Positions 5,021 through 64,000 of a stretch of DNA of 64,000 nt are shown in pieces. The translations under genes and the position numbers were made by a program. How positions within the stretch are numbered: position 1 is the first letter of the stretch; each line of letters starts with the position of its first letter. A model generated the notes under the pieces. That model worked only from the letters and a program-made list of their open reading frames with translations. It did not search any database and had not been told where the DNA came from. The DNA comes from Anagrus nilaparvatae (Eukaryota > Arthropoda > Insecta > Hymenoptera > Mymaridae), in the NCBI GenBank assembly GCA_022575985.1, contig JAKSXM010000014.1, positions 5,952,001-6,016,000 of the forward strand. Reading direction: 5' to 3'.

Positions 5021-5261
5021 TTATAAATCAGAGTTTTGATTATTTCTAGTTTTAAAAAAAGAAAATTGAATTTCAAAAATTGTAACGAAATAACTTCTAA
5101 ATTTAAAAACAAAAATTAATGAAATTCCGGTTTACAAAATAGAATCAATATATTTTATGGCTTTAAAACCAGAAATTTTCATTATTAATTACTAAAATTA
5201 ATTAATATTTATAATTTTCTTGTATCTCTATAAAGTCTTAAACGCTGCCGCCGCTGTCGAA

Positions 5262-5970
5262 TGGCACTTTTGGACCAACCTGGTACTTTTGGGCCAATTT
5301 GGTACTTTTGGGCCATATTGGTCCTTTTGGGATAAAATGTAACATTCGGGCCAAACTGAACCTTTTGGGCAAACTGGGCCTTTGGGCCAAACTACACCTT
5401 TCTGGCCAAACTGAAACTTTTGGGCAAAACTGAACCTTTTGGGCAAAACTGGACCTTTAATGCCACAGTGGCTCTGTTTACATAAAAACTGTTGTATAAG
5501 TTTATTTACCCAAAATAGTCTTTTTGGGCCAAAGCGGTACTCCTAGGCTAATATGGTACTTTTGGGCCAATTTGGTACTTTTGGGCCAAACTTGTACTTT
5601 TGGGAAAATCTGGTACTTTTGGAACAAACTGAACCTTTTGGCCAATCTGGTACTTTTAGGCCAATATGGTACTTTTGGGCTAAACTGGTACTTTTGGGCT
5701 AAACTGGTACTTTTGAGAAAATCTGGTACTTTTTGAACAAACTGAACCTTTTGGCCAATCTGGTACTTTTGGGCCAAACTGAACCTTTTGGGACAACCTG
5801 GTACTTTTGCGCTATACTAGTCCTTTTGGGTCAAAATGGATCTTTTTTGATAAAATGTAACCAAACTAGGGCCAAACTAGAACCTAACCTAAACTAACCT
5901 TTAAGGTTAAACTGAACCTTTTGGGCCATAGTGGCTCTTTTATCTAAAAATTTTTGCATAAACTTATTTA
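5262..5970. repeat. About 20 bp tandem array (GGTACTTTTGGGCCAA type), left arm
   Basis: More than twenty imperfect copies of a roughly 18-20 bp unit such as TTTGGTACTTTTGGGCCAA. The array keeps long open frames on both strands only because the unit rarely contains stops, so the lysine/proline/tryptophan-rich translations here are not taken as genes. An inverted counterpart lies at 11740-12062. Confidence 0.9.
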
Positions 5971-9000: not shown

Positions 9001-9003
9001 TCT

Positions 9004-10138
9004 CCAGTCAAAATACGGGTTTGGTTGTATTGTTTCTGGCCACCACCAGATTTGGTCTACTATGGGTTTTTTGGGTCGCTGAACACGAAAATAGGGGTCT
9101 TTTCTATGAGAAACTGGGGCTTGACCCTTAAATTGGGCAAAACTTGCCCTAAATAGGGCATTTTTGACAGATTCACTCTAAGCCTTTGAAATTTGGTATA
9201 CGGGGGTTTTTTAGGTCGCTGATAACGAATATTTAATTATTTTTAATGAAAAATTATACCTTTGCCCTTAAATTTGCCCAAACTAGCCCTAAAAAGGGCA
9301 TTTTTGCTACATTCACTCCAGCCCTTTAAAATTTGGTATACGGGTCTTTTTTGGGTCGTTGATCACGAAAATCGGAGTCTTTTCTATGAGAAATTGGAGC
9401 TTGACCCTTATATTGGGCTAAACTTGCCCTAAAAAGGGCATTTTTGCTGCATTCAGTCTAGGCCTTATAAATTTGGTGTACGGGGGTTTTTTGTATCGCT
9501 AAACATGAATATTAAGGTTTTTTTAATGAGAAATTAGACCATCACCCTTGAATTGGCTAAAACTTGCCCTAAAAAGTTTATTTTTGCTACATTCAGTCTA
9601 GGCTTTTGAAATTTGGTGTACGGGGTTTTTTTATCGCTAATCACGTATATGATGGTTTTAAATTTTAGGGGGCTAGAGTGAATGTAGCAAGAATGCCCTT
9701 TTTAGGGCTGTTTTGGGCCAGTTTAAGGGCAAATGTATAATTTTTCATTATAAATAATTTAATATTCGTGATCAGCGACCTAAAAAACCCCCGTATACCA
9801 AATTTTAGAGGGCTGGACTGAATGTAGCAAAAATGCCCTTTTAGGGGCTAGTTTGGGCGAATTGAAGGGCAAAGGTATAATTTTTCATAAAAAATAATTG
9901 AATATTCGTAATTAGCGACCCAAAAAACCCCCGTATACCAAATTTCAAAGGCTTAGAGTGAATTTGTCAAAATGCCCTTTTTAGGGCAAGTTTTGCCCAA
10001 TTTAAGGGTCAAGCACTAGTTTCTTATAGAAAAGACCTCGATTTTCGTGTTCAACGACCCAAAAAACCTATAGTAGACCAAATCTGGTGGTGGCCAGAAA
10101 CAATACAACCCCCCCCCCCCCCCACGTATTTTGACTGG
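9004..10138. mobile_element. Nested palindromic element built of 140 bp repeats
   Basis: Ends CCAGTCAAAATACG (9004) and CGTATTTTGACTGG (to 10138) are inverted repeats. The left half carries four direct copies of a 140 bp unit (TTTTTTGGGTCGCTGA-type phrase near 9067, 9207, 9347 and 9487). The right half carries three inverted copies (near 9776, 9917 and 10058). Each unit has a GCCCTAAAAAGGGC internal palindrome. The same family, with the same left edge, recurs at 63396-64000. It appears inserted in the 58 bp array. Confidence 0.8.
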
Positions 10139-11739
10139 ACTATACTTGCTTATTGCCTACTTGGTTGTTTTTGATTTAAGATTTCTGGATATTGAATCTT
10201 CTGGAAACTATGATTCTGATACTCATTAATCAAGTTACATTTACATAAGAATTAAAAAAAAAAAAATTGACAATTTTTTGACTGCAGACGGAACTATTAG
10301 AGCTGGAAATTTCTATTATTTTTGAGCTACTACATTACTCAAGACTTTTTTATAAAGTTTCAGATTTTTAAAAATCTTTGAAGATAATATTTAGGACATT
10401 ATTTAGTATGGATTCACTGAAAAAAGTTTTTTATTTTCTTAATTTTTCCCCGAATAAATCGATATTTTGAAAATTATAAGTTAAATCAAAAATCAAAAAT
10501 AATGAAAAATATTTAATAATATTATTAGAAATTTAAATTCTTTTCGGGGATCGATACTAAATATTATCCTAAATATTGTATTCAAAGATTTTTAAAATCA
10601 GAAGCGTTATTTTAATTTTTAAGTTTTAATTTCCAAAATTCTTAAAAAGAAAAATGCTATTTTTAATCACCTGATTCATCCTTAAACTATTAAAACTAGT
10701 AAAAAGGGAAATCCTCTTTAGCAAACAAGATATAACTAATTTATTTCTAGTTTTAATACTGAAATTCTATTTTAAATATTGGAGCTTACGAATTCCTGGA
10801 TTTGAAACCAGGAATGAGTAAATTTCTGTTTTATAAACAAGTTAATGATTTATTTTTAGTTTTGAATCTTTCTGGATTCAAAACCAGTAAAGAGTAGATT
10901 TCATTTTTATAAACTAGAGATATAGATTTTCTAGTTTTAAATCAAGAAATCATTCTCTTTTCTTGTTAAGATCCTAAGAAAATTAGGATTGAGTTGTGAG
11001 GGTAGAATTTGAATTAGATATGGAAAAAATTTATTGACAAAATAAACTGTTTTTGCTTCTTATTTATATGCTTTTAAATTATGGGCGAAAATTTAAACAA
11101 AAAAATTAAATTCATTTTTAAATTTTTGCCAAGTGGGATTGGTATAGATAACAGAAGGGTAATAGAGATTATTGAATATAATATTTTTAAATTGTTTAAA
11201 GGTAAAAATTTCAAAAAATTGATTGAGTTTTAATCCGCAGATTGGTTCAAAATTGTAATTTACTAAATGGGAAGGTTGAATACCAATATATATATTATGT
11301 TAAAAAAATTTTATTTTTTATATTTATTAAAGATATTATTGCAATAATTGTTATTTTAAAATTTTTCTAATCAAATGCATAAATGATTATAATAAGCAAC
11401 TAATATATTTTTATATTTACTAGGGGGCTCCGACCCCTGCGAGCTTCGCGCGCCAACCCCCGTAGAAAAATTAGAAAACTAAGTTAGTTTTAAAAACAAA
11501 CAAATTTTGTAAATTTTACAAATATGAGGTTAGTCATGGTGATATTTACATAATTTACTTAAATAATGTAATCATGAACATCGATTTTGGTTATGTTTAA
11601 AAGTTATTTTTCTTCTAGTAGTTGCAAAAGATAGTAGTAGCTCCTAGTAGCCCAAAATGACCATTTTTGGTAAGGGGTCTTATAAAACATCGATTGTTAA
11701 GGCGAAAAGGACCGCTTTGGTTCAAAAAGACCATTTTGG
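10139..11739. other. Right central part of the foldback, no gene
   Basis: 10170-10510 is the inverted counterpart of 6970-7270. 10640-11000 holds scattered CTGGATTTAAAACCAG-like subterminal fragments. 11422-11466 is a short GC-rich block in otherwise AT-rich DNA. No coding region is recognised. Confidence 0.5.
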
Positions 11740-12062
11740 GTAAATAATGGCCCAAATGTTACATTATATCCCAAATGGTCCATTTTGACCCAAAAGGACC
11801 AGTATGGCGCAAAAGTACCAGGTTGGCCAAAAGGTTCAGTTTGTTCCAAAAGTACCAGATTTTCCCAAAAGTACCAGTTTAGCCCAAAAGTACCATATTG
11901 GCCTAAAAGTATCAGATGGCCAAAAGGTTCAGTTTGTTCCAAAAGTACCAGATTTTCCCAAAAGTACCAGTTTGGCCGAATAGTACCAAATTGGCCCAAA
12001 AGTACCAGTTTGGCTCAAAAGTACCAAATTGGCCTAAAAGTACCAGATTGGCCCAAAAGTGT
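11740..12062. repeat. About 20 bp tandem array, right (inverted) arm
   Basis: Reverse complement of the 5262-5970 array (TTGGCCCAAAAGTACCA units). It leads into the mirrored GC-rich mark ATTCGACAGCGGCGGCAG at about 12063. Confidence 0.9.
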
Positions 12063-12356
12063 CATTCGACAGCGGCGGCAGCGTTTATGACTTTATAGAG
12101 ATACAAGAAAATTATAAATATTAATTAATTATAGTAATTAATAATGAAAATTTCTGGTTTTAAAGCCATAAAATATATTGATTCTATTTTGTAAACCGGA
12201 ATTTAATTAATTTTTGTTTTTAAATTCAGAAGTTATTTAGTTATAATTTTTGAAATTCAATTTTCTTTTTTTTAAACTAGAAATAATCAAAACTCTGGTT
12301 TATAAAACAGATGAAATCATTTTTCTGGTTTTAAATCAAGAAATAAGTTCACTCAT

Positions 12357-38996: not shown

Positions 38997-39101
38997 CTAG
39001 TAATGAATAAAGTTTCTTTCATTTAAGGTAGTACATTAGTTTGCAGAAAAAAAAATCAATTTTTGTTTTAATTTTTTTTTTTGAATTACTTATACCTTTA
39101 A

Positions 39102-40356
39102 CCCTCCTTGTGTCCACTAGGTCGATATAGTCCACCAACTTTTTACGACATAGCTGTAACTCGGGCATGGGCAATGGTTGATGGTTGGTGCCCCATCCTG
39201 AAAAAAACTTTCACCCTTGTTATGAACATCTACCAAACCGCGTTAGTTTTGGTTTAGCCGTTTAGTCATACTGTGGGTGCCAAGTTGGACCGTGGACGAT
39301 ATCTACCTACGGGACACGCGACGCGAGTTTTTTTTCAACTTTTGGTAAGTAAAAAATTTTATCAAATACGCTCCAAAATAATAAATTTTGACACATATAT
39401 GCCTTTTTTCATAAAAAAAAGATTTTTACATAAAAAACACGTGTCAGGCCAAACCTGATACGGCTAGCTTTTGCTATAATAAGGGCATGACTTTGGTTTC
39501 TAATGCACCGAATAAGCAAAAAGTAGACCTAGCCGTATCAAATTTTCATAAAGCTGGTAAAATGTTAAGCCGAAAATCACCACTGCCTCCTAAACCGGAT
39601 ATAATTTTATTCTATAATAAAACTAAATTCGGGGTAGACACCGTTGACCACATGTGCGGCAACTACAGTGTAGCAAGAATTAGCAGTAGCTGGCCAATGC
39701 GGATCTTCTACGGAATGCTCGTCCAAAGTGGGGTCAACTCCAATATTATTTATAATTTGAATCCAAACCTCGACAGCATGGTAAGGAAGGATTTTCTTAG
39801 GGAACTAGGTTTCGACCTAATAAAACCTCACTTGCTGACGCGTTTACAAATCTCGACGTTGAGAGTAGTCAATCAGGAAATGATACGGAATATTCTACAA
39901 TTACCAACGGAATGTGACAAAAAGCAAATACATTTCGAAGATCAAAAGAGGCACTATTGCAGTTGTTGCTCACCAAATGATTAAAAAAACAATATGGTGC
40001 TGTTCGCATCGTCTAAGAGGTGCTTGCGACGAACATCTTCTCCAAACGTGTTACAAATGTAGAAATATGATATATTTAAAATTTTTTTTGTACTATTTTC
40101 TTTTTTATAATTCATATCAAAATTTTTTATACAAAAAATATTAAAAACAATTAAAAAAAATAATAAACTGTTGCAAAAAATTTTTTTCCTAAAAATTTCA
40201 CAAAATAAATCCATTTTTTTTCTCTCCAAAATTTGATTATGACGAACCACCTTAATTTTTTTTGACAAAATTTTTTTTAATCACTTATAAACAACTTTTT
40301 TGGCCATTAAATGCCCCTGGGGGTCTGTTTATCCAATAAAACCTTCATGCAGAGGG
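39102..40356 (+). mobile_element. piggyBac derivative, copy B
   Basis: Starts CCCTCCTTG at 39102 and ends GCAGAGGG at 40356, with TTAA on both sides (39098-39101 and 40357-40360), the diagnostic piggyBac target duplication. At 1255 bp it is half the usual length or less and keeps only the transposase 3' half. It forms an inverted pair with 43730-44982; the similarity extends about 25 bp beyond the 3' TTAA and further beyond the 5' one. Confidence 0.88.
39487..39984 (+). pseudogene. piggyBac transposase C-terminal half
   Basis: An open frame of 165 codons. KPDIILFYNKTKFGVDTVDHMCGNYS contains the last catalytic Asp of the DDD triad in the VDTVD context, followed by the conserved WPMRIFYGMLVQSGVNS. 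The C-terminal Cys-rich domain begins (RHYCSCCSPND) and then breaks: its remaining part (WCCSHRLRGACDEHLLQTCYKC) is in another frame at 39980-40070. The first two catalytic Asp residues and the N-terminus are absent, so the piece is non-functional. The same frame break is present in the inverted copy. Confidence 0.85.
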
Positions 40357-40383
40357 TTAAAAATTACCTGTTAAAATTATATA

Positions 40384-41169
40384 TTTTACCTGAATAATCC
40401 GTCTGGTGACTTAGTAAACTATTTAACATCAAAACCGACGCGTTTCGGAACTTGTATTAAAACACTAACACTTAACACTAATTACATAAAAAGTACAAAA
40501 TGTTTAATATATATAATAAATAAAATATTTATTTGCACAAAACAACACTGTGTTGACATTTTGAGCGCGCGCTATAGAGGCCGGCGAAAACCTGATTTTA
40601 ATATTCGTGATAGAATGATAATTTTAAAATTTTTAAAATCCGTTTATTCGATGTTATTATTATTATTGTCATTTAAAATTTGTGATGATTGAAATTTAAA
40701 TGCCTTATATATTTCAAATTTCTCGAAAGCGTTCATAATATTTCCTTTATTGCATATATGCAGTGGCTTTAAAATTATTATTATTAGAGTTCCCATAGTC
40801 GCAGAAAAATTAAAATCAAACTTCGCTAAACATTTGATAAACGAAAATCATAACTGCTCCAGTTTACAGAACAACTTAAAGCCACTGCATATATGCAATA
40901 AAGGAAATATTATGAACGCTTTCGAGAAATTTGAAATATATAAGGCATTTAAATTTCAATCATCACAAATTTTAAATGACCAGTTACACTTTAAATCAAA
41001 TTCCTCATATAATATAGCGATAAACATAAACAACAACAATAATAATAATAACATCGAATTTAAGTCCGCTGTACCGGTCCCAAGCCCGGAGCCTCATAAG
41101 GCTGAGGAAGGAGGAGGGTGGTTCTGGCCTCCTTTTTTCAAGGTTGAACTCGAATCAAGGATATAGGAT
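40384..41169. pseudogene. Penelope-like element fragments in the spacer
   Basis: Plus strand 40796-41010 reads EKLKSNFAKHLINENHNC, EIYKAFKF and LNDQLHFKSNSSYN, the C-terminal tail after the GIY-YIG endonuclease of Penelope-like elements. 40667-40773 is an inverted copy of 40876-40982, so the fragment forms a hairpin. The reverse complement of 40434-40447 reads CCGAAACGCGTCGG, a phrase like the 3' side of Penelope hammerhead motifs, but no CTGATGA partner is found nearby. An (AAT)n tract lies at 41030-41055. Confidence 0.6.
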
Positions 41170-42950: not shown

Positions 42951-43709
42951 GTGAGTCCTTATAGGTGTATTTTATGGAAAAATATTGACGAACGTCATAG
43001 CAATAGGAACCAGCAATTCTGGTTAACCCATGACGCAGGCCGGTGCGCTATATGGCTACGAGGTCGTGCTCAGACGTCTATGTCCCGACATGGAAAAGGC
43101 AACAGCCACGTCTGGGCAAAATGCGGTGATACAACTTTCATTAGTTGTTATTTGTCACCGAATGACACTATTGGGGTGTTCAGCGCAAAGCTGGCCTCAT
43201 TGGAGGAAACGATAAGGGAAGTCTCTGGCAATATCATATTTGCTGGGGACTTAAATGCCAGGGCCGTGGAATGAAGAATGCCAACCACGAACCGTAGGGG
43301 AACGTTGATCCTAGAGATGGCCGCTAGAACTGATCTGGTGGTCATGAACTCTGGGAACAATCCAACCTACGTAAGGCCAGGCTTCGGTGAATCGATCCCT
43401 GACGTCACTTTTGCCTCGGCCGGGCTGGCAGAAAGAGAGGGCGGTTGGAGAATGATGGATGGAGCCAATGGCAGAGACCATAATTACATCACCTTCAAAG
43501 TGCGTGATAGGGTCGTTAATCGGCCCCCGTACAAAAAGCGCCCACTAACCTGGAATGTGTCAAAGATGGACGAGGACAGATTTGTGGTTTATTATCTTCG
43601 CGAAGAGTTCTCGTCTATTCCTGCCTGGTATGGAGGACCTACCACCCCGCGAGAGGCAGAGACTTTTGTCAAGAGAGTAACTGCTCTTCTGAGCAAACTA
43701 TATATATAA
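42951..43709 (+). pseudogene. R1-like LINE apurinic endonuclease domain fragment
   Basis: Two adjoining same-frame pieces (42951-43274 and 43278-43709) are separated by a single TGA (43272-43274). FISCYLSPND and IIFAGDLNARAVE are the central endonuclease motifs (the GDLNA Asp and Asn are catalytic-site residues). The TGA sits where the homologous element has VD followed by a stop as well (51209). Then RRGTLILEMAARTDL and IPDVTFASAG follow, and GRDHNYITF gives the conserved final Asp-His. The reverse transcriptase is missing: the copy ends at 43725, where the piggyBac copy starts. Confidence 0.75.
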
Positions 43710-43729
43710 TTTTAACAGGTGATTTTTAA

Positions 43730-44982
43730 CCCTCTGCATGAAGGTTTTATTGGATAAACAGACCCCCAGGGGCATTTTATGGCCAAAAAAGTTGTTTATA
43801 AGTGATTAAAAAAAATTTTGTCAAAAAAAATTAAGGTGGTTCGTCATAATCAAATTTTGGAGAGAAAAAAAATGGTATTATTTTGTGAAATTTTTAGGAA
43901 AAAAATTTTTTGCAACAGTTTATTATTTTTTTTAATTGTTTTTAATATTTTTTGTATAAAAAATATTGATATGAATTATAAAAAAGAAAATAGTACAAAA
44001 AAAATTTTAAATATATCAATTTCTACATTTGTAACACGTTCGGAGAAGATGTTCGTCGCAAGCACCTCTTAGACAATGCGAACAGCACCATATTGTTTTT
44101 TTAATCATTTGGTGAGCAACAACTGCAATAGTGCCTCTTTTGATCTTCGAAACGTATTTGCTTTTTGTCACATTCCGTTGGTAATTGTAGAATATTCCGT
44201 ATCATTTCCTGATTGACTACTCTCAACGTCGAGATTTGTAAACGCGTCAGCAAGTGAGGTTTTATTAGGTCGAAACCTAGTTCCCTAAGAAAATCCTTCC
44301 TTACCATGCTGTCGAGGTTTGGATTCAAATTATAAATAATATTGGAGTTGACCCCACTTTGGACGAGCATTCCGTAGAAGATCCGCATTGGCCAGCTATT
44401 GCTAATTCTTGCTACACTGTAGTTGCCGCACATGTGGTCAACAGTGTCTACCCCGAATTTAGTTTTATTATAGAATAAAATTATATCCGGTTTAGGAGGC
44501 AGTGGTGATTTTTGGCATAACATTTTACCAGCTTTATGAAAATTTGATACGGCTAGGTCTACTTTTTGCTTATTTGGTGCATTAGAAACCAAAGTCATGC
44601 CCTTATTATAGCAAAAGCTAGCCGTATCAGGTTTGGCCTGACACGTGCTTTTTATGTAAAAATATTTTTTTTTGAAAAAAGGCATATATGTGTCAAAATT
44701 TATTATTTTGGAGCGTATTTGATAAGATTTTTTACTTATCAAAAATTGAAAAAAAACTCGCGTCGCGTGTCCCGTAGGTAGATATCGTCCACGGTCCAAC
44801 TTGGCACCCACAGTATGACTAAACGGCTAAACCAAAACTAACGCGGTTTGGTAGTTGTTCATAAAAAGGGTGAAAGTTTTTTTCAGGATGGGGCACCAAC
44901 CATCAACCATTGCCCATGCCCGAGTTACAGCTATGTCGTAAAAAGTTGGTGGACGATATCGACCTAGTGGACACAAGGAGGG
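43730..44982 (-). mobile_element. piggyBac derivative, copy C (inverted)
   Basis: CCCTCTGCATG at 43730 and AAGGAGGG ending at 44982, both flanked by TTAA (43726-43729; 44983-44986). 1253 bp, nearly identical to copy B in reverse orientation, with matching sequence on both flanks, so the pair is better explained by an inverted segmental duplication than by two independent insertions. Confidence 0.88.
44101..44811 (-). pseudogene. piggyBac transposase C-terminal half, copy C
   Basis: Open for 236 codons on the reverse strand. From the Met at about residue 72 it equals the copy B protein almost residue for residue (MTLVSNAPNKQKVD, FGVDTVDHMCGNYS, WPMRIFYGMLVQSG) and ends at the same RHYCSCCSPND stop. 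The extra N-terminal residues (MGAKLDRGRYLPTG...) are also present in copy B at 39273-39458 but in a broken frame, and do not look like piggyBac protein. The shared frame break means both derive from one already dead copy. Confidence 0.8.
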
Positions 44983-45059
44983 TTAAAGGTATAAGTAATT
45001 CAAAAAAAAAATTAAAACAAAAATTGATTTTTTTTTCTGCAAACTAATGTACTACCTTA

Positions 45060-46985: not shown

Positions 46986-48460
46986 TTATAAGCGAAAACA
47001 ATAATCACCTGAAGATAGAAAATAGATTACCAAGTATAATGCAAAAAAAAAATTTTTATTTTTGTGAGGCGAGATTTGGCTTTGTATGAGGAAAGATTCT
47101 GAAAATGTGCGTTTGTGATAATGTTGTTCAGTATCTAGAGCCTTAACACCTTTACAATTAAATTTATGACCTAATTTTCTATGTTCAGTAACAAGACCGT
47201 GTTTATCATCATTTAAGCTGTAATGATCAAAATGTTCCTTTCTTCTTACACCTAATTCACGTTTGGTTTTACCTACGTATGAGGAAACACAATTAATGCA
47301 TTCAATTTTATACACCTTATTAGGTTGTTGAAATTTATTTAATTTGTCTTTTCCTCTGATAATTACTTGACTAATCATATAGTTAGGTTTAACTACAACT
47401 TGAATATTATAGGGTTCAACAGCATTTTTTACTCTGTAAAATAAACTATTATTATGAGGAAGACATAATTTCATTTTTTGATTATTTATGTTGTTAGCTA
47501 TTCCATTAGTACCTTCAATATTATTTTTTTTCCCTTATAATTTAAAGTATCCAGCCTTTTTTTAATGTAAAATTCAATAAATTTATTTGGATATGCATTG
47601 TTACTCAAGAAAGATTTTACCTTAAATAGATTATCATTATGAAAGATTTTATCAGATAATTTGTATACTTTGTCAACCAATGTGTACACCATGCCTATTT
47701 TTTGTGATTTTGTGTGACATGAATTAAAATTTAAGGTTCTATAAGATGTGCCTTTCCTACACCAATTATATAAAATTTTGCTATTATTATTTATCAACCT
47801 TAATTCTAAGAAATTGATGATTTTATTGTCTTCAAGTTCATGGGTAAATTGTAATCTATTATTGTAAGAATTAAAAATTTTTAATGTGTAATCAATTTTA
47901 TCTTTAGAAATGCATGTTAAAATATCATCAACATATCTGTAGTAAAAAATCAGCTTAAAATTTAATTTTTTTAAACATTTTTCTTCAAGATCACACATCA
48001 CTATATCAGCTAAAATAGGTGAAACTCGTGAACCCATCGGTGTCCAAAAGATCTGTTTATAGTATTTGTATATAGAATGAAAAATATGTGTTATAATATT
48101 ATAAATCTACAGCACTTATAATATCCCTTATTAACATTTTTTTTTTGATAACTTTTTTCAGATCTTTAAATCTTTTTCTTATGCTGGTTTTAATTAATTC
48201 TATAGGTACATTTGTATACAAAGCCTTAACATCTAAAGAGAACATAACATAATCATCAGGAATAGTGATGTTTTTTAATTTTTCTATTAGCATTTCACTG
48301 TTTTTTACATAAGAATTTGGATTTTGAAAGCCCTTAATAAAATATCAGTTAAGAATTTTGCCAAAAAGTAAGTAGGAGTTCGGATTATGAGCACAACAGG
48401 TCTTACAGGATGACCATTAGACTGTGTCTTATTTTTAATTTTTCGATATTTTTTGGCTCT
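46986..48460 (-). pseudogene. Penelope-like element: reverse transcriptase plus GIY-YIG endonuclease
   Basis: Reverse strand, in order from 48460 down: GHPVRPVV and PTYFLAKFLTDIL, VMFSLDVKALYTNVP (RT motif A; 48293-48099), a frameshift, PMGSRVSPILADIVM (motif B) and YYRYVDDILTC (motif C with both Asp), all in 48037-47498, then a stop, and 47474-46986 with KVYKIECINCVSSYVGKTKRELGVRRKEH, the GIY-YIG endonuclease core with its Arg and the Glu-His. The RT catalytic residues survive although the frame is broken twice. Penelope-like elements copy RNA at a nicked chromosomal end. Confidence 0.82.
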
Positions 48461-50822: not shown

Positions 50823-53800
50823 TCAAGGTAGTCCAAGGAAACATGCATAGAAGCTGGATCGCAAACCAGCTTATGTACCAAATTCAGAGGGAGATCAAGC
50901 TGACCTGTGGATCATCAGCGAGCAGTACCCAGCAGCTTATCCAAACCCAACCACCTGGTTTGGGGACGAACTTGGAACAGAAGCAGCTATTTGGGTCAAA
51001 TCCTGGAAATGTTCCAGTTAAAGCATCAGGAAGGGGCAGGGGCTTTGCGTGGATCAGAAGCAAAGCTATAACGTACGTGAATTGTTACTTAACACCAACA
51101 GGACCTATACAGAACTATTATACGAAGTTGGTAGACATAGAGGACTTCGCGAGAGAAGCGGGCGGCAATTTAATTGTTGCAGGAGACTTTAATGCCAAAG
51201 CTGTTGACTAGGGTATGCCTTATACTGACTCAAAGGGAACTGCGACACTGGAAATGTTATCAAGGTTGGGTCTCGCTGTTCTAAACGTGGGTAAAACCAC
51301 AACCTTCAGAAGGCCCAACTACGTTGAAACAATAATAGACATGTCCTTCGCATCTGAAGGCCTGAGTACGAGGGTCAATAATTGGCACGTTATGGAAGTC
51401 TTTACTGCGAGCGACCACCAATACATTTCGTTTGAAATTCAGCATGAGAGACAGCCCCCTGGAGAGGCATATAGGCCAAAACCAAGAGGCTGGTATCTTA
51501 ATAAGCTGAACAACGAACGATTTATACGAACGATTAATTTATTATTTATAGAGTTTTAATGATGGGAAAAAGGGCAATTCTAATAGAACCCCGCAGAGTA
51601 GGAAGTAAGGAAGACGCGGAGACAGTAGTATCCGAAGTAATGACGCTGCTTAAAAAAGCATGTGACGCTTCCATACCTCGAATAAGGTTTAAAAGGAACC
51701 CACCTGTGTACGGGTGGAACACAGAAATCGCAGAGCTACGCAGACAAAGCCAAAGAACGCGAAGAAGAGCGACTAGAGCCAAGTCTCGCGAAGAAGCAAG
51801 GGAACTGATGATAGTTCACAAAGAAGTGAAACGATCTTTGAGGTGAGCGATTAATGCCAGTAAGATCCGCTGTGAAAGGAACCTATGTCTCGAAGTGGAC
51901 AACGATCCCTGGGGATTGGGCTTCAAGATACTCACGAAGAAGCTAGAGCGCTTTGCGGCTAGCTCACTAGTGGACGAAGAGGAAGCAAGGACAGTAGTTG
52001 ATGCTATGTTTCCGATGCACATGACGAGAATATACCAAGAGGAGGATATTAATGTAAACGATGTCCCGGACTTCACGCAAGAAGAGCTGTTTGCTGCCGT
52101 AGACTCTCTCAGAAATAAGAAAGCCCCAGGCCCAGACGGCATACTAGCCGAAATCATAAGAATTGCTGCAGACGAGTGTCCGTCATTGATGTTAATGATG
52201 TACAACACGTGCCTACGAGCTGGAGTCTTCTGTAGGCGATGGAAAAAGGCACGACTGGTCCTTATCAGTAAAAGAAAGGGAGATCCCACACTCCAGTCCT
52301 ACTGGCAGCCTTTAGGACTATTGGATACAGCAGGAAAGGGCTTTGAAAAAATGTTACAACCGCGTATTTTAAATACAGCAAAAGCAGCAGGGAATTTATT
52401 TCCTCGGCAATACGGGTTTAGACGAGGGCGGTCCACGATCGGGGCTATGAAGGAGGTCGTTGACGCGATAACAGAGGCCCAAACGGGTAATCATTACTCT
52501 CGTAAAATTATTCTTTTGGTTACCCTTGACGTCAAGAACGCATTCGACTCGGCAAAGTGGACAAAGTTCCTGCAAGGACTACATGACTTTGCAGTACGGA
52601 AATATTTTCAAGGTTACCCTTGACATCAAGAACGCATTCGACTCGGCAAAGTGGACAAAGTTCCTGCAAGGACTACATGACTTTGCAGTACGGAAATATT
52701 TGATGCGGGTAATGAAGAGCTACCTAAGCGACAGAGTACTATTGTACGAGACTCTTCAAGGGAAGAAGAGTAGGAAAGTTACAGCAGGTGCAGCTCAGGG
52801 CTCCATACTGAGACCTGACCTATGGAACGTCTCCTATGATGGTATCCTGAGACTAGAGCTGGGGGATGGCTGCTTTATGATAGGCTATGTGGATGACATT
52901 GCCCTCGTGATCATAGGAAGGAACGTGCAACAAGCTGAGGAGAGCTTGAGCGTCTGCATGTTAAAGATAAGCGCATGGATGGAAGAGCATGGTTTAAGTC
53001 TGGTAGCCGCTAAGACAGAGATCGTGATTTTCTCGGAGAAGCAAATCAATACCGTCATTTCAATACGGGTCGATGAGGAAACCATTATAGAGACGGAAAG
53101 GTTCGTAAAATATCTTGGAATATTTCTGGATACGATGCGGACCTATTTCGAGCATATTTCTCAAAGGGTCAAGAAGGCAGGTACGAACACAATGGCCTTG
53201 AGCAGGCTGATGTCCGTAACTCACTTCATCTTATTGTACGGAGCGGAGATTTGGGGTGAGGCACTGAAAAAGGATATCTATGCAAAAGGCAGGGTGCTCT
53301 GAGGGTTTCTTGCGCACACAGGACTGTCTCAAAAGCGGCAGTTCTTGTTATTGCCGGAATTATTCCAATTCAGCTTCTTGCCAAAGAGCGCAAGCTTATA
53401 TACGAAAGAAAAAATGAGGAACTTGTAATATATTAAAGCGGATGTTAGGAGAGCTACAATGTTGGGGTGGCAAGGATGAACTCATAAAAGAGGTCGTACC
53501 CTAGACTCAGAGGGGGCGCGGAGAGGTAAACTACTTTTTGACACAGTTCCTCAGTGGCTATGGGCTTTTCCAATCCTATCATTTCAAAATAGGAAAGGTC
53601 GTGAGCCCTGAATGTGTATTTTGTCCGGACAAATGAGACGACGCGCGTCACACTTTTTTCGAGTGTTACCGCTGGATAAGTAGAAGGAGGACACTGGAGG
53701 CAGAGATGGAGATGGAGAAAGTCACACTCAATAACATAGTTGAAAAAATGCTCCAGAATGAGGAATCATGGAGCATCGTGGCAAGGTACGTGGAGGAGAT

Positions 53801-54347: not shown

Positions 54348-54378
<31 letters not shown>
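54347..54378 (+). repeat. Poly(A) tail of the R1-like LINE
   Basis: An uninterrupted A-run of roughly 30 bases after CATGCAAAACG marks the 3' end of the retrotransposon. The length suggests a fairly recent insertion, in contrast to its damaged ORFs. Confidence 0.9.
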
Positions 54379-54380
<2 letters not shown>

Positions 54381-54980
54381 ATTATAGTCAGAGAAAAAAT
54401 GGGTACTAGAAAATTGAGAATCTGTTTGGTAATTTTTGGAGTATAAATTATTAATTTTTTTCTTCATTTGTTTGTAAAGAATTAGTTCATAAAAATCTAA
54501 ATATGTTTTATAAGCATTATTAATAAGTTCTAATTTGCTATTTTTAATATATTTTTTTAAATTGGAATCAGTTTTATTTATGTTTTTTAATAAATAATTT
54601 ATATGGAAATGAATATCTTTAATGTGTAAATTAAATGTGCGTTTTTGAAAATTAATAACTAGTTTGTCAAAATTATTATTACCAATATTACTATAAAATT
54701 GTTGATGTTTCACATTCTTGGCTATATTCACAATATTAGATGGAAATAAGTCATTACGTCTGTTAAATACTAAGAATTCCCTTTGTACATTTGCTTGAGT
54801 TTCTTTTTCAAATTCATGAGCAATCTAACCTTCTTCTGACAACGAGTACCAAATTCATGGTTATTATCGTTTAATATACTTGTAATAACTGTATGATCTG
54901 GTCTACTGATCAGGGCGTCATTGCATCTAAGCCCAATATAATTAAATTTGTTAACGCTGGACATATTTTTAAGTAAATAA
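54379..54980 (-). pseudogene. Penelope-like element, N-terminal part (reverse strand)
   Basis: 54964-54770 reads MSSVNKFNYIGLRCNDALI, HTVITSILNDNNHEFGTRC and KKVRLLMNLKKKLKQM; 54731-54400 continues with a helical Asn/Lys-rich region. It resembles the region before the reverse transcriptase in the other Penelope-like copies here. The following 200 or so residues up to RT motif A at 48293 are missing, consistent with the R1-like LINE and foldback lying between the two halves of one element. Confidence 0.65.
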
Positions 54981-55008
54981 ATAAATTATTCGATGTACAC
55001 CATGCCTA

Positions 55009-55748
55009 TTTTTTAATTAAAATTTAAGAATCTATTATAATGTACACATTGGTTGACAAAGTATACAAATTATCTGATAAAATCTTTCATAATGATAATC
55101 TAATCAAGGTAAAATCTTTCTTGAGTAACAATGCATATCCAAATAAATTTATTGAATTTTAGATTAAAAAAAGGCTGGCTACTTTACATTATAAGGAAAA
55201 AAAAATATTGAAGGTACTAATGGAATAGCTAACAACATAAATAATCAAAAAATGAAATTATGTCTTCCTCATAATAATAGTTTATTTTACAGAGTGAAAA
55301 ATGCTGTTGAACCCTATAATATTCAAGTTGTAGCTAAACCTAACTATATGATTAGTCAAGTAATTGTCAGAGGAAAAGACAAATTAAATAAATTTCAACA
55401 ACCTAATAAGGTAAGGTGTATAAAATTGAATGCATGAATTGTGATTCCTCATACGTAGGTAAAACCAAACGTGAATTAGGTGTAAGAATAAAGGAACATT
55501 TTGATAATTACAGCTTAAATGATGATAAACACGGTCTTGTTACTGAACATAGAAAATTAGGTCATAAATTTAATTGGAAAGGTGTTAAGGTTCCAGATAC
55601 TGAACAAAATTATCATAAACGCACATTTTCAGAATCTTTCCTCATACAAAGCCAAAAAAATAGTCTTAACAAACAAGAAGACTCAAATAAATTAAATCCA
55701 GCCTTTTCTAAATTAATTTATGTTTTACAATACAAAAATATCATATGA
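55009..55748 (+). pseudogene. Penelope-like element, GIY-YIG C-terminal part (plus strand)
   Basis: YTLVDKVYKLSDKIFHNDN through FLSNNAYPNKFIEF (about 55042-55160), stops, then 55252-55437 (KLCLPHNNSLFYRVKNAVEP) and 55416-55748 with MYKIECMNCDSSYVGKTKRELGV and a following Lys-Glu-His, the GIY-YIG core. Nearly the same sequence is on the reverse strand at 46986-47700. A 5 bp duplication (AAGGTAAGGT, near 55410) causes the frame break within the endonuclease. Confidence 0.8.
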
Positions 55749-56029
55749 TATTACAGATTTCTATTGTTATCTTATTTGCATATGCTAATAATATTATATG
55801 ATAATGTAATTACATAATGATACTTGTATAGACATTTGTATTAATTGATACAGATGTCTATACTTGTGTTATTATTTGTTATTTTTCTTTTTCTTTTAAA
55901 TATTGACAAGTAGATATTGTAGTCTACACGTACACAAAGTATAATCAGTATCATGAATATTCATATACAATATAAGCTCTTTAATCAAAACAAAAAGTTT
56001 ACTATCAAAATAATATAAAAAAAATTTTA

Positions 56030-56142
56030 TTATATACTAAATTAGGTAAGATTCATGTAAATATTGTTTTTATATTTTTAATTATCAAATAATTTATTTA
56101 ATTTCAGTCCTGATGAAGGAGTTAAACGCCTCCGAAATATAG
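56030..56142 (+). ncRNA. Candidate Penelope-type hammerhead ribozyme motif, imperfect
   Basis: CTGATGA at 56110-56116, one extra base, a stem GGAG/CTCC (56118-56121 with 56130-56133) and GAAA at 56134-56137 form the hammerhead core. A long helix I is possible (56036-56044 with 56099-56108, one bulge), while helix III would be only about 3 bp, so catalysis is doubtful. The sequence 55-110 bp downstream (56192-56250) equals, inverted, the start of the Penelope ORF at 54948-55000, so the motif lies just upstream of the element's coding start, where hammerheads are reported in Penelope-like elements. Confidence 0.5.
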
Positions 56143-56191
56143 ACAATGTATTTTTGTTTTTTATAAAATAAAAAGAGTATATATCTAGAAA

Positions 56192-57588
56192 TCATCGAAT
56201 AATTTATTTCTTTACTTAAAAATATGTACAGCGTTAACAAATTTTATAGAAAATAAAAATTTTTTTTCAGTGAATCTTTATAAAAAAGTCTTGATTAATT
56301 TAGTGTGTCAAAAATTAAAGAAATTTCAAGAGGTAATATCTCCGCCTGTTGTCAATAAATTCAAAAAAAAAATTTTTTATGTTCTATGAGACATATAACT
56401 TGATCAATGTCTATAAAAATCAAAGATTCCAGAAATTTCGATTTCCAGAAATCTTAAATGAAGAATGCTAATTTTATTCACCTGATTCAACCTTAATAAT
56501 TTCTACCTTTACTGTAAGTTGAGGAATCCTGACTTCATGCCTTTTCCTCGACTATATAAAAGTAATGTTAGTAACTAATGCGCTCAGTTTAAAAATTAGT
56601 ATGTTAATAGCGGTTATATAGAATGGACGCTTCTTATGGTTTTATACCAAATAAGTTCTTTCAACAGCTTCAAGGTCAAATTGAAAGAGACTTTTACTCT
56701 GATTGTTTGAGAAGCCTTGCCCAAAAAATTATCTATCCAGTAAACCCCTACTTATAGCATCTACCCTTAGTGAATTTAATATTATTACTTAAAAAATGGT
56801 ATTATAAAAAAAAATAAAAAATAAAATTTGATCGTATTATAAAAAAAAGGAAAATCTTAAATTAATTCCCATTAACCATTATTAAACTATTTGAATTGAT
56901 TTTTAGGACTTTGATTTTTTAATGAAAATATAGGAATTTTATTTTTTAAAGAATAATAAAAAAAAATTAATTGAAAATTTGAATACAAAATAAAATTAAA
57001 AATGAATCTATTTTGAAAATGAAGTTATTTTGATTAAACGTGAAAATTTAATTAACATGAATGAGACTAAGTACCCTTGAATTAAAATAAAAATTTAAAG
57101 AAAAATATTCTAAGTTCTTTTTTTGATTTTAAATATAAAAATTATTTTAAGTTCATTACACATTTAATAAGAGAGACGCGTCATGAGTCCTTGCTCTTAG
57201 AAGAGCTATTTCCCCAAGTACCAAAAATTTTTTTTTCTATTTATTAGGTTACCTCGGATTTGCAAGGTCCCGGTGTTTCCTCTTTTATGATAGTTGCGTA
57301 ATGAATTCATTTACATTTATAATTAATATTTTAATTTTAATAAGCTGGAACTCTTTTATCCCTACTTTTTTATAATTTTTATATTAATTTTATTTGCGTG
57401 TATTAATTAACATTTTATTTAATTTGTATTTGTTTCCTTACGTTGGAATTTCACATTGAGCTTCCAAGCAAACTTAAAATTTATAGAATAATGATTTAAC
57501 TTTTGTATGTGTTTTGTTTTTAATATATAATAATTTAATGCAATTTTCTATGCTTAAATGCATGCGTCGCAGGTCTTTGCGATTAATA
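56192..57588. other. Repeat fragments, no gene
   Basis: 56192-56250 is the start of another Penelope unit. 56262-56500 resembles the foldback interior at 7080-7270 and 10600-10680 (CAGTGAATC, TTCCAGAAATTTCGATTTCCAGAAATCTTAAATG). The rest is AT-rich without a supported gene. Confidence 0.5.
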
Positions 57589-58952: not shown

Positions 58953-59414
58953 TTACCTTAAAGGTTCTGGAAATCCTTCATGAGGTTCTCCAATCGCTCC
59001 TTGAAAAAATTCGATTACAGACTTTGGAAAAGATAATTCTTCGGCTTGAGTTAATACATCTTTTGGTTTTAGCTTATTTTGAACCATAAACTGTGCTAAA
59101 TCACCTACCACTTTTGAACTAGGCGTTACTTTAATGATATCACCTAATAATATGTTTGCTTGTCTGTAAGCTTTCTTAACATCTTCAAAATATTCACCAA
59201 GTCCTAAAGAAAATGCTTGAAACTGAAGATTTGTATATTGCCCTCCTGGAATTTCATTAAGATATACATCAGCATTTCCAGATTTCATTGTTACTGTGCA
59301 TTCAAATGGAGCATACAAAGTTCGGGTTTGTTCCCAGTAGGCAGAGTATTCGGAAACATCACTAAGATTAATTCCAGTATCCAGTGACGTACCTAGAACA
59401 TCAATAAAATTCAT
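58953..59414 (-). CDS. Pyruvate carboxylase exon (carboxyltransferase/central part), isolated
   Basis: A stop-free reverse-strand frame of 153 residues. [54 protein letters not shown] and [18 protein letters not shown] are near-diagnostic of animal pyruvate carboxylase, the biotin-dependent mitochondrial enzyme turning pyruvate into oxaloacetate. The piece covers the end of the carboxyltransferase domain and the start of the following linker/allosteric region. It ends at a good splice donor (AG/GTAAAT, reverse strand just below 58958). At the 5' side the ATG codon aligns with an internal Met of the enzyme, but no AG acceptor or pyrimidine tract precedes it. No other exon of the gene is visible on either side in the window, so it may be a gene fragment or an exon with very long introns. 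I cannot decide which. Confidence 0.85.
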
Positions 59415-59714
59415 AAATTTTAATGTATTTTTTATATTTTATACTAGCTAATTGGCCTCAAGACTATTAATTATTATTAATCAATGATTATTTAATTTTT
59501 CTATAAATATTAATAATATTAAAATACAAAAATATAATAAAATAAAATATTAAACTATAATACTTTATTAATTCGTTCCTTTCATAAATTTAACTTAAAA
59601 GATATTATATATTGGTCAATATGAACATAAAAATAACAATTTAATTATTGCTTTATACAAAAATTTGATGGAAATTATTTGTCAGTCTTATTACTGACCT
59701 AAAAGATTTTAAAT

Positions 59715-59788
59715 GGTTTATTTCGGCTCTGTATAGTAGTACGAGCCATCATCAGTAAAGTATACTACTATACTTCTTTAGATAAACC
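59715..59788 (-). ncRNA. Type III hammerhead ribozyme, left arm
   Basis: The reverse strand of 59715-59788 is identical to the 74 nt motif at 60389-60462, with all core bases, helices and loops conserved. Confidence 0.75.
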
Positions 59789-60388
59789 AAGATGTTAAAC
59801 ATTACAAAATACTCATTTATATACCTTTAGTATTTCACTTCTCTTTCGAGATAAATTACAGTTTATGTTCATCGGTGTTCAGATAGTACAACTCAATATA
59901 TATACTTATATTTTGTATAGTTAGTCGAATAACAGTTTAATTACTGAAAAAGTATGACTATATTACTATACACAAAGTAGTACATATAAAATAGACAAAC
60001 AAAACTGTAATTTCTTGGCATATTTAAGACCCAATGCCAAAAAATTAAACTATAATACTTTATTAATTATTAATACTAAAATACTAAATACTTTATTAAT
60101 ACTAAATTAATTAATAAAGTATTATAGTTTAATTTTTTGGCATTGGGTCTTAAATATGCCAAGAAATTACAGTTTTGTTTGTCTATTTTATATGTACTAC
60201 TTTGTGTATAGTAATATAGTCATACTTTTTCAGTAATTAAACTGTTATTCGACTAACTATACAAAATATGAGTATATATATTGTGTTGTACTATCTGAAC
60301 ACCGATGAACATAAACTGTAATTTCTCTCGAAAGAGAAGTGATATACTAAAGGTATATAAATGAGTATTTTGTAAAGTTTAACATCTT

Positions 60389-60462
60389 GGTTTATCTAAA
60401 GAAGTATAGTAGTATACTTTACTGATGATGGCTCGTACTACTATACAGAGCCGAAATAAACC
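60389..60462 (+). ncRNA. Type III hammerhead ribozyme, right arm
   Basis: Helix III GGTTTA (60389-60394)/TAAACC (60457-60462); U16.1 at 60395 pairs with A15.1 at 60456; cleavage-site C17 at 60396 (triplet AUC). Helix I TAAAG (60397-60401)/CTTTA (60417-60421); core CTGATGA at 60422-60428; helix II GGCTC (60430-60434)/GAGCC (60448-60452), then GAAA 60453-60456. All conserved core positions are present; the only oddity is one extra U (60429) between the core and helix II. Loop 1 (60404-60414) and loop 2 (60436-60446) are perfectly complementary over 11 nt. Predicted to self-cleave after position 60396; activity not tested. Confidence 0.78.
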
Positions 60463-60600
60463 ATTTAAAATCTTTTAGGTCAGTAATAAGACTGACAAAT
60501 AATTTCCATCAAATTTTTGTATAAAGCAATAATTATATTGTTATTTTTATGTTCCATATTGACCAATATATAATATCTTTTAAGTAAAATAAAATATACC

Positions 60601-60680
60601 GGGCTCGGTAGCGTAGAGATAACGTTCTTGCTTGTTAATATTGGCAAAAAAATCTACCACCGCGGGTATGGGTGGCGCTG
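60601..60680 (+). other. Degenerate tRNA-like (SINE head?) sequence
   Basis: GGTAGCGTAGAGATAACG resembles a polymerase III A box region and TTCTTGCTTGTTAATATTGG an anticodon arm, but the B box is too diverged (GCGGGTATGGGT) to support a tRNA. Possibly the remains of a tRNA-derived SINE. Confidence 0.35.
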
Positions 60681-60778
60681 TTAAAAAATCCAATATGGCG
60701 TCTCACAACATGCTAGCATAATAGCTTATAATATAAATATTATTGTTTTATCAAGTTTTTTCAAATTATTTTAAGAAA

Positions 60779-61288
60779 ATGTCGCGAATTTCTATGAGAA
60801 GTATATACAATTATACAAACGCTAATACTTGGTCTAGGAGTTATGTTGAAGGTGAAAGAATTTTAAATTCTAATTTAATTGTTATTTGTGGGATAACTAG
60901 GATAGAAAATAATGCAGTTTTTCTATATTCATTAATTTTACAAGCGTCACACATTACAAGTAACCCATATGAAGTAAAAGGAAAATTATTAATTAATTCA
61001 GAAATTTTGAACAATGAAATGTGTCAAGATGTTTTCATATCATCAATGAGTTGTACTTGTAAAGCTGGGCAAAGTGAAATTTGCAAACACGTAGTTGCAG
61101 TATTATTATATTGCAACAGGTATTTAAAGCTTTTTATTTTTTTATAATGTTTTATTAAAGTTAATTTTTAACAATCTAATTATTATTGTTCTTCTATTTT
61201 AATAAATAATAATAGTAAATATTTAAATAATATTTTTAGGAATGATATCTGTAAACTTCAAGAACCATCGTCAACTGATTTAGAATGA
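60779..61288 (+). CDS. SWIM zinc-finger protein, two exons
   Basis: ATG at 60779 (an upstream in-frame ATG at 60743 is also possible) gives MSRISMRSIYNYTNANTW, RSYVEGERILNSNLIV and, near the exon end, SCTCKAGQSEICKHVVAVLL, a SWIM motif (CxC...CxH with Cys-Thr-Cys and Cys-Lys-His). The first exon ends at a CAG/GTATTT donor (61120); the second begins after TTTTTAG at 61240 and in frame adds NDICKLQEPSSTDLE, then TGA (61286-61288). Other family members continue past SSTDLE with a Trp, so the TGA may be a TGG-type mutation. SWIM domains bind DNA or protein and occur in Mutator-like transposases and in a dispersed insect family. No transposase domain is present here. Confidence 0.7.
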
Positions 61289-63395: not shown

Positions 63396-64000
63396 AATAA
63401 AGTTACTCCAGTAAAATCACGGTTTTGGTGGTATTGTTTGTGGCCGCTACCAGATTTGGTCTACTATAGGTTTTTTGGGTCGCTGAGCACAAAAATCGGG
63501 GTTTTTTCTTTGCGCGATTGGGGCTTGACCCTTAAATCGGGCAAAACTGCCCCTAAAAAGGGCATTTTTGCTGTATTCATTGTAAATCTTTGAAATTTGG
63601 CATACGGGGGTTTTTTGGGTGGCTGATAACGAATATTGCAGTTATAACTATGAAAAATTACCCCTTCACCCTTAAATTGGGCAAAACTGCCCTTAACTAG
63701 GGCATTTTTGCTGTATTCACTGTAAGCCTATGAAATTTGGTATACGGGGGTTTTTCGGGTCACTGATAACAAATATTGCAGTTATAACAATGAAAAATTA
63801 CCCCTTCACCCTTAAATTGAGCAAAACTGCCCCTAAAAGGGGTGTTTTCGCTACTTTCAATCTAGCCCTTCAAGATTTGGTGTAATAGGGTTTTTTGGGG
63901 CACTGATCACAAAAATCGATGTCTTTTCAATTAAAACGTAATTCTTCAACCTTATATTAGCCGAAACTACTCCTAAAAGGGGCGCTTTCGCTATATTCGT
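63396..64000. mobile_element. 140 bp repeat element, left part (continues outside the window)
   Basis: Same edge (CCAGTAAAATCACGG) and same 140 bp units (TTTTTTGGGTCGCTGA-type phrase near 63470, 63611, 63750 and 63890) as the element at 9004-10138. Four units are visible in plus orientation; the inverted half, if present, lies beyond the window. Confidence 0.8.

Follow-up and report, generated by a model that had tools for sequence, protein, structure and literature searches.

A dispersed retrozyme-like element with an atypical type III hammerhead motif and head-to-head arms in Anagrus nilaparvatae, a candidate substrate of Penelope-type machinery

Circular RNA intermediates have been proposed for the retrozymes of metazoans, with Penelope elements as plausible helpers, in the available sections of PMC7229834. 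The anatomy of Penelope elements, as laid out in the portions of PMC3846280 at hand, includes head-to-head pLTRs, one of which carries a 31-bp tail while its partner is 37 bp shorter, and duplications of 8-10 bp; the origin of these head-to-head structures is left open there, self-priming being favoured. According to PMC11167929, both target strands are cut and extended in vitro, targets are AT-rich, and the tail is bounded by two start sites; a dimer is predicted for the enzyme, and the later steps of insertion are called unvalidated. Hammerheads similar to the one described here have been mentioned in termite and dipteran DNA, the available part of PMC7936874 referring to a study “in preparation”.

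The DNA analysed in this work, called the window, is a stretch of 64,000 nucleotides of A. nilaparvatae (contig JAKSXM010000014.1, positions 5,952,001 to 6,016,000). A near-perfect palindrome carrying one type III hammerhead per strand had been predicted there from the letters alone, at 59593..60585. The alignment of the arms (59593-60069 and 60108-60585; 478 columns, 7 differences, one of them a 1-nt gap) and the identity of the motifs on the two strands confirm it. The palindrome is real, but the inserted element is slightly larger and asymmetric, spanning 59551-60584 between 13-bp direct repeats (Table 1). Its left end is ~42 nt longer than the right one; the surplus includes 23 nt that recur at the arm's inner end. 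The asymmetry implies that a 495-bp unit was copied slightly more than once on the left, and slightly less than once on the right. The unit was deduced from the window before other copies were seen; head-to-tail copies spaced 494-496 bp were found later with a 74-nt query. Both arms stop at unit position 1, and the palindrome looks perfect for this reason. The open-reading-frame list has no long frame within 59551-60584, which makes this an element without a protein; as no frame for a reverse transcriptase or a GIY-YIG endonuclease lies in the interval, the element is non-autonomous at most. Judging from its sequence, the palindrome is likely to be a single insertion of a protein-less, retrozyme-like element of ~495 bp with an atypical type III hammerhead, the RNA of which, probably circular, would have been copied by Penelope-type machinery from both strands of a staggered cut.

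Table 1. Coordinates of the inserted element, its parts and its flanking repeats in the window
Feature	Position	Strand	Basis
Target-site duplication, left copy, 13-bp direct repeat TAAAATAAAATAT	59538..59550		Random 12-mer match probability 6e-06 in the neighbourhood
Tail, last 23 nt of the left arm, entering a second unit; outer end at site 2	59551..59573	-	Same 23 nt as 60046-60068
Left arm with a complete 495-bp unit; sense strand of the ribozyme is minus	59574..60068	-	Alignment
Left-arm hammerhead, 76 nt, predicted minus-strand cut at 59781/59780	59714..59789	-	Identical to the right copy; cut read from the motif
AT-rich spacer at the head-to-head junction	60069..60107		About 40 nt between the arms
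Right arm without tail, covering unit positions 1 to about 475 and ending outwards at site 1	60108..60584	+	Alignment
Right-arm hammerhead, 76 nt, predicted cut between 60396 and 60397	60388..60463	+	Descriptor, random-sequence control, fold
Target-site duplication, right copy, 13-bp direct repeat	60585..60597		Matches 59538..59550

An exon of pyruvate carboxylase (PYC_OADA domain; 58953-59414, minus strand) lies ~140 bp from the insertion, and by its position the element may reside in an intron of this gene. A 136-codon open frame with a SWIM zinc finger (60737-61147) lies directly to the right. Other repeats populate the window: a large inverted repeat (39048-40384 and 43702-45036, 95-98% complementary) with a fragment of a DDE_Tnp_1_7 (piggyBac-type) transposase in its left arm; two arrays of ~19-bp repeats, mutually inverted (5243-5871 and 11730-12084); tandem ~140-bp repeats, some inverted, at both window ends (9002-10078 and 63406-63985); and a 94-bp tandem duplication (52506-52693) within the reading frame of a LINE reverse transcriptase. 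A candidate diverged copy of the element at 23.4-23.9 kb was rejected, its score being no better than that of shuffles.

The predicted 74-nt motif at 60389-60462 (plus strand) is identical to 59715-59788 (minus strand), and has all type III core elements according to a descriptor made of CUGANGA, GAAA, a UH site and stems of at least 3/3/4, helix III being open. Helices I and II are 5 bp long as claimed, but helix III is 8 bp long, not 6. The layout consists of helix III UGGUUUAU/AUAAACCA, an AUC cut site, helix I UAAAG/CUUUA, the core CUGAUGA, an extra U, helix II GGCUC/GAGCC, and GAAA. The extra U, located between A9 and helix II (CUGAUGA-U-GGCUC), was absent from the original prediction. 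In the plus hammerhead of a viroid, an extra core nucleotide reportedly adjoins A9. The presence of an extra nucleotide in that core, a precedent for the one seen here, is documented in the accessible part of PMC3705267. The descriptor finds two sites in the whole window, the motifs of the palindrome. In 556 Mb of first-order random sequence of window composition, no motif was found with stems of at least 5/5/8, and two with stems of at least 5/5/6; a chance origin of the motif is very unlikely. Loops I and II have 11 perfectly complementary nucleotides in common, a figure matched by 2 of 100,000 shuffles. In a hammerhead-constrained fold both stems lengthen, and the small loops left over could kiss. 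The unconstrained fold has a shifted stem I (-20.6 vs -16.1 kcal/mol for the best hammerhead-compatible fold), a gap of ~4.5 calculated with loop-loop pairing left out. A covariance score below threshold had been named beforehand as a point against the motif, and this is what Rfam's model gave: no hammerhead at the gathering score over the window, nor at E<=5 over 59550-60650. Searching the A. nilaparvatae genome with RF00008 yielded 0 matches; the same search yielded 0 also in each of 14 control genomes, and its result therefore carries little weight. Permissive Rfam searching of the palindrome gives matches below cut-off, among them a microRNA precursor model (43 bits vs a cut-off of 113), which were discarded as hairpin-driven. 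The idea that transcripts of both strands could cleave themselves holds formally, as there is one ribozyme per strand, but in each transcript the complement of the ribozyme precedes it, and the ribozyme may end up inside a hairpin of ~450 bp.

The lack of other copies with a conserved core, a second point named against the motif, is contradicted by the genome. A 35-nt ribozyme pattern, allowing up to 3 mismatches, has 253 matches in the 488.7 Mb of assembly (393 contigs), and its backward control 0; the 74-nt query has at least 41 matches at 99-100% identity, from the best 40 of 288 candidates scored. The majority of arms do not exceed about one unit in length, and tandem units occur in some, so that the direct-tandem copies sought since the original prediction do exist, within arms. 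Identity of the copies ranges from 73-85% up to 100%, and at least three subfamilies can be told apart by identity and ribozyme variant. The notion of an undescribed small retroelement, put forward at the outset, is supported by dispersed copies, target-site duplications, truncations and tandem units. The counts given below refer to 58 distinct loci, 50 found via the ribozyme (window included) and 8 held-out loci found via another part of the unit, and drawn from the best 40 of 282 candidates scored. Ribozyme-found loci derive from the 74-nt search or from 100 of the 253 pattern places, all without mismatch, and copies with damaged ribozymes are under-sampled as a consequence. L044, L045 and L046 were left out, having the same structures as L022, L025 and L026, of which they are probably haplotypic copies; L024 was merged with L023, and L003-L010 are places already covered by loci with other flanks. 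Bacterial L001 and L002, and L072-L074, which are Penelope, do not enter the element counts. A gapped pattern run on contigs of other genomes hit two bacterial stretches lacking stems and an Rfam hammerhead, which were dismissed as chance.

N7 and C17 are positions tolerated by hammerhead chemistry, and changes are frequent only there (28 and 18, respectively) in 65 distinct locus-sequence combinations. N7 changes nearly always to G, and C17 to A in the printed variants; the extra U is changed in 0 of the 65. The stems are nearly invariant among these copies of one genome, their changes being singletons. Between units of subfamilies Y and W, 1 of 76 positions in the ribozyme and 28 of 415 outside it are different. 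For old copies compared with the W unit, the corresponding figures are 38 of 1664 and 587 of 5864, a contrast biased by the finding of most loci through an exact ribozyme match. All the held-out loci, picked without the ribozyme, keep a recognisable one, but its core is altered in some (at A15.1 in L064 and both L065 arms, at G5 in one of the units of L066). Core changes in ribozyme-found loci involve C3 in L021, G8 in L029 and G12 in L040. The family supplies copies of different age in which recurrent ribozyme changes are confined to two tolerant core positions.

Two arms are found at 44 of the 58 loci, and all 44 are arranged head-to-head, the minus arm preceding the plus arm (38/38 two-armed loci in the ribozyme-found set, 6/6 in the held-out set); L065 is head-to-head with a small extra flip at the junction. 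Outer ends fall at two sites ~40 nt apart, site 1 at unit ~466-488, and site 2 within the following unit, at a depth of 16-30 nt overall and of about 20-30 nt in the ribozyme-found loci. Each of the two sites is used by one end in 33 of 34 classable loci, namely 27/28 ribozyme-found, after two hand corrections, and 6/6 held-out. The corrections concern L015, the right end of which is unit 475 and not 512, and L036, the right arm of which is a 24-nt tail only. Two site-1 ends occur in 0 of the 28 classable ribozyme-found loci, two site-2 ends in L041 alone. In L041 (1383-2276) the tail is found on both outer ends, and the direct repeat found is only 8 bp long. Among the 38 two-armed loci of the ribozyme-found set, 10 have one or both outer ends away from the two sites, and these are often copies that are old or interrupted. 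One-armed copies number 12/50 among ribozyme-found and 2/8 among held-out loci. A preference of these copies for site 2 was considered and abandoned, as the 12 loci split into 5 at site 2, 5 at site 1 and 2 at neither; both held-out ones are at site 2.

Direct repeats of 12-18 bp flank 34 of the 58 loci when ends are set by script (28/50 and 6/8), and 24 loci have no duplication of 12 bp by the same script. Held-out loci have 13-14-bp duplications around all 6 two-armed copies, and none at the two one-armed copies. The duplications of the 28 ribozyme-found loci are 86% A+T. In a control covering the first 14 loci with hand-set ends, whereas script counts cover all 58, 9 loci reach 12 bp, and 0 of 182 mismatched flank pairs exceed 9 bp. 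L015 has a 13-bp duplication with hand-set ends, yet falls outside the 28 counted by script; candidate duplications 29-33 nt off in L012 and L022 were left out of the count. Arms range in length from the 24-nt tail of L036 to about 11 units in L023. Inner ends differ by >10 nt in 40 of 41 junctions, the window being the sole exception, and the closeness of its inner ends accounts for its neat palindrome. Inner ends occur all over the unit; they are mildly enriched close to the unit border (11 vs 4.3 expected), and not enriched at the ribozyme cut (2 vs 3.5 expected). Traits of a Penelope-type insertion are found: head-to-head arms, a tail on one arm only, a short duplication, and an AT-rich target. 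Sites 1 and 2 have complementary sequences (AAAGUAUUAUA/UAUAAUAUCUUU), which pair with each other when one arm is folded as a linear molecule; the corresponding stem is not visible in the circular fold of the window unit, and the complementarity is taken as a hint.

The most likely scenario is the following. The element RNA would cleave itself at the hammerhead and close into a circle. A GIY-YIG endonuclease/reverse transcriptase of Penelope type would cut both target strands with a stagger of ~13 nt, and both target 3' ends would prime cDNA synthesis on a single RNA, starting from site 1 in one case and from site 2 in the other. Both cDNAs would run towards the 5' side of the RNA, sometimes several times round, and would eventually be joined in the middle. 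Two antisense cDNAs started from a staggered cut and growing inwards would leave the arms head-to-head, with inner ends that differ, and would not produce tail-to-tail copies, which is what the loci show. That the two different start sites almost always come as a pair suggests two subunits in a fixed arrangement on a single region of the RNA. In the most specific version of the scenario, for which we see an even chance, one RNA, probably a circle made by the ribozyme, would be copied simultaneously from both cut strands by a two-subunit Penelope-type enzyme, with start sites ~40 nt apart, one per strand, and cDNA running round the circle up to about ten times per side. If this is true, double-ended rolling-circle reverse transcription would make head-to-head arrays, and would explain the inverted structure of Penelope elements in general.

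Information on the template comes from a 9.9-kb insertion at C1:8.296-8.305 Mb, flanked by a 13-bp duplication, in which the left arm has ~11 units, the right arm ~9, and all 18 full units (10 minus, 8 plus) are identical; the large array accounts for 9 plus-strand matches to the 74-nt query. Such uniformity would most simply reflect one recent event, one circle being copied many times from each side, though the identical units may also derive from a linear template or a source array that was homogeneous, or from a collapse in the assembly. Private variants common to both arms are 23 of 199, and occur in 12 of 31 young two-armed loci, against a mean of 0.7 and a maximum of 5 in 40 permutations; 10 of the 23 are contributed by L065 and L067, and 19 of the 31 loci have none. 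Within-locus and between-locus distances are 0.0160 and 0.0161 in subfamily W, whereas in subfamily Y the former is smaller (0.0014 vs 0.0168), largely through one big array. A linear multi-unit transcript, in place of a ribozyme-made circle, is a tentative possibility as template for the same element. Unprocessed tandem RNA was the main substrate of insertion in PMC11167929, and ribozyme mutants left insertion unchanged; a preferred RNA 5' end could also give the mild excess of inner ends near the unit border. The 18 identical units across both arms argue instead for one circle, barring the homogeneous array or collapse mentioned above.

Penelope elements are at hand in the same genome. A Penelope-like fragment has at least 109 matches, from the best 150 of 456 candidates scored, and several form minus-then-plus pairs. 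Three copies were fetched. In L074 the head-to-head arms are 909 bp long (97.9% identity), one side has a surplus of ~22 nt, and there is a direct repeat of 10 bp; the surplus stretch resembles the reading-frame start of the window's Penelope. L073 has head-to-head arms and no clear duplication, L072 no inverted arms. Penelope-like pieces are arranged head-to-head also in the window (46986-48037 and 54380-55020 on the minus strand, 55041-56247 on the plus strand). A LINE whose poly-A end lies near 54378 may have split a single arm into the minus pieces. The plus arm stops shortly within the start of the reading frame, and no convincing duplication was found around the window's Penelope. The anatomy of the window and L074 copies matches that reported in PMC11167929 and in the available sections of PMC3846280. 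No sequence is common to the element and the window's Penelope, and we therefore infer the helper from insertion anatomy alone. Twin priming by LINEs yields inverted copies, and LINE-type reverse transcriptases are present in the window. Mobilisation of the element in this way, by a LINE or another reverse transcriptase, is nonetheless unlikely, as the outer ends use two fixed sites, a different one on each side, the ends inspected lack an A-tail, and Penelope copies follow the same plan (L074 here; the accessible portion of PMC3846280).

Snapback self-priming, in which one cDNA folds back and copies itself, has been proposed for Adineta Penelope (PMC3846280, in the part available). The process accounts for head-to-head arms and a palindromic centre, and the window taken alone fits it, but it would be expected to leave equal inner ends, and outer ends that are the same left and right. 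Of 41 junctions, 1 has inner ends no more than 10 nt apart, and outer ends are mixed in 33 of 34 loci; snapback appears quite improbable. The family is a natural data set for separating two-ended priming from snapback, and its paired unequal outer sites and unequal inner ends fit the former. Tandem units exist, and a satellite unit might have turned palindromic by DNA rearrangement or replication template switching, but flanking direct repeats, and outer ends recurring at unrelated loci, leave very little room for this origin. A DNA copy of an infectious viroid-like or delta-like circular RNA is brought to mind by the atypical type III hammerheads with long stems and loop pairing of delta-like RNAs and termite and fly DNA (available part of PMC7936874), and by the compact circular fold of a single unit, which has a z of -6.0 in L023 and of only -2.25 for the unit of the window. 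Yet each unit has a single hammerhead, of one polarity, no long reading frame is listed inside the element, copies span 73-85% to 100% identity, and exact patterns in viral contigs and blastn of phages found no match, making this origin highly improbable. Least credible is the foldback that captured a ribozyme of the original prediction, or a similar MITE-type DNA transposon, which would share with the element a long inverted repeat, a short spacer and the lack of a protein, but is at odds with the absence of fixed inverted termini at both ends of all copies, with arms going from a fraction of a unit to ~11 units, with outer ends at different sites and inner ends unequal in nearly all junctions, and with the one-armed copies.

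A Penelope-driven insertion of a retrozyme-like RNA, our preferred reading, places the element between several known systems. Traits of retrozymes are found in the non-coding hammerhead unit, in the dispersed distribution, in the target-site duplications and in the direct tandem units of some arms; the type I hammerhead of animal retrozymes is replaced by a type III layout. As far as the available text of PMC7229834 goes, metazoan non-LTR retrozymes are likewise small, non-coding, AT-rich tandem hammerhead units with target-site duplications of >4 bp, but have type I hammerheads in direct tandem units of 170-400 nt, whereas the element has an atypical type III hammerhead, a 495-nt unit and head-to-head arms. 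A type III hammerhead in a non-autonomous element recalls the LTR retrozymes of plants; in the latter, according to the accessible sections of PMC4918200 and PMC7229834, duplications are 4 bp long and pairs are direct, while here no LTR structure was found, duplications are 12-18 bp long and pairs are inverted. In the open-access literature, as far as its available text goes, neither a type III hammerhead in an animal retrozyme nor a retrozyme arranged head-to-head was found; subscription journals were mostly outside the scope, and part of this finding may already be in print. Head-to-head arms, an optional tail of 30-40 bp on one arm, AT-rich targets, short duplications, tandem copies and a hammerhead are shared with Penelope-like elements, which differ in that their hammerheads are minimal type I, the element being in turn devoid of a protein (PMC11167929, and PMC3846280 in the sections at hand). 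The mirror-image insertion hints at Penelope-type machinery building from both ends of a cut. The ribozyme itself is closest to the atypical type III hammerheads of termite and dipteran DNA and of delta-like RNAs, with which it shares a stem I of 5 bp, extended stems, loops of stems I and II that form Watson-Crick pairs, and a location in animal DNA. In the available part of PMC7936874 the termite and dipteran hammerheads are reported as isolated motifs; here a motif of this kind, with an extra U after A9, belongs to a repeat family, and is placed inside a dispersed mobile element.
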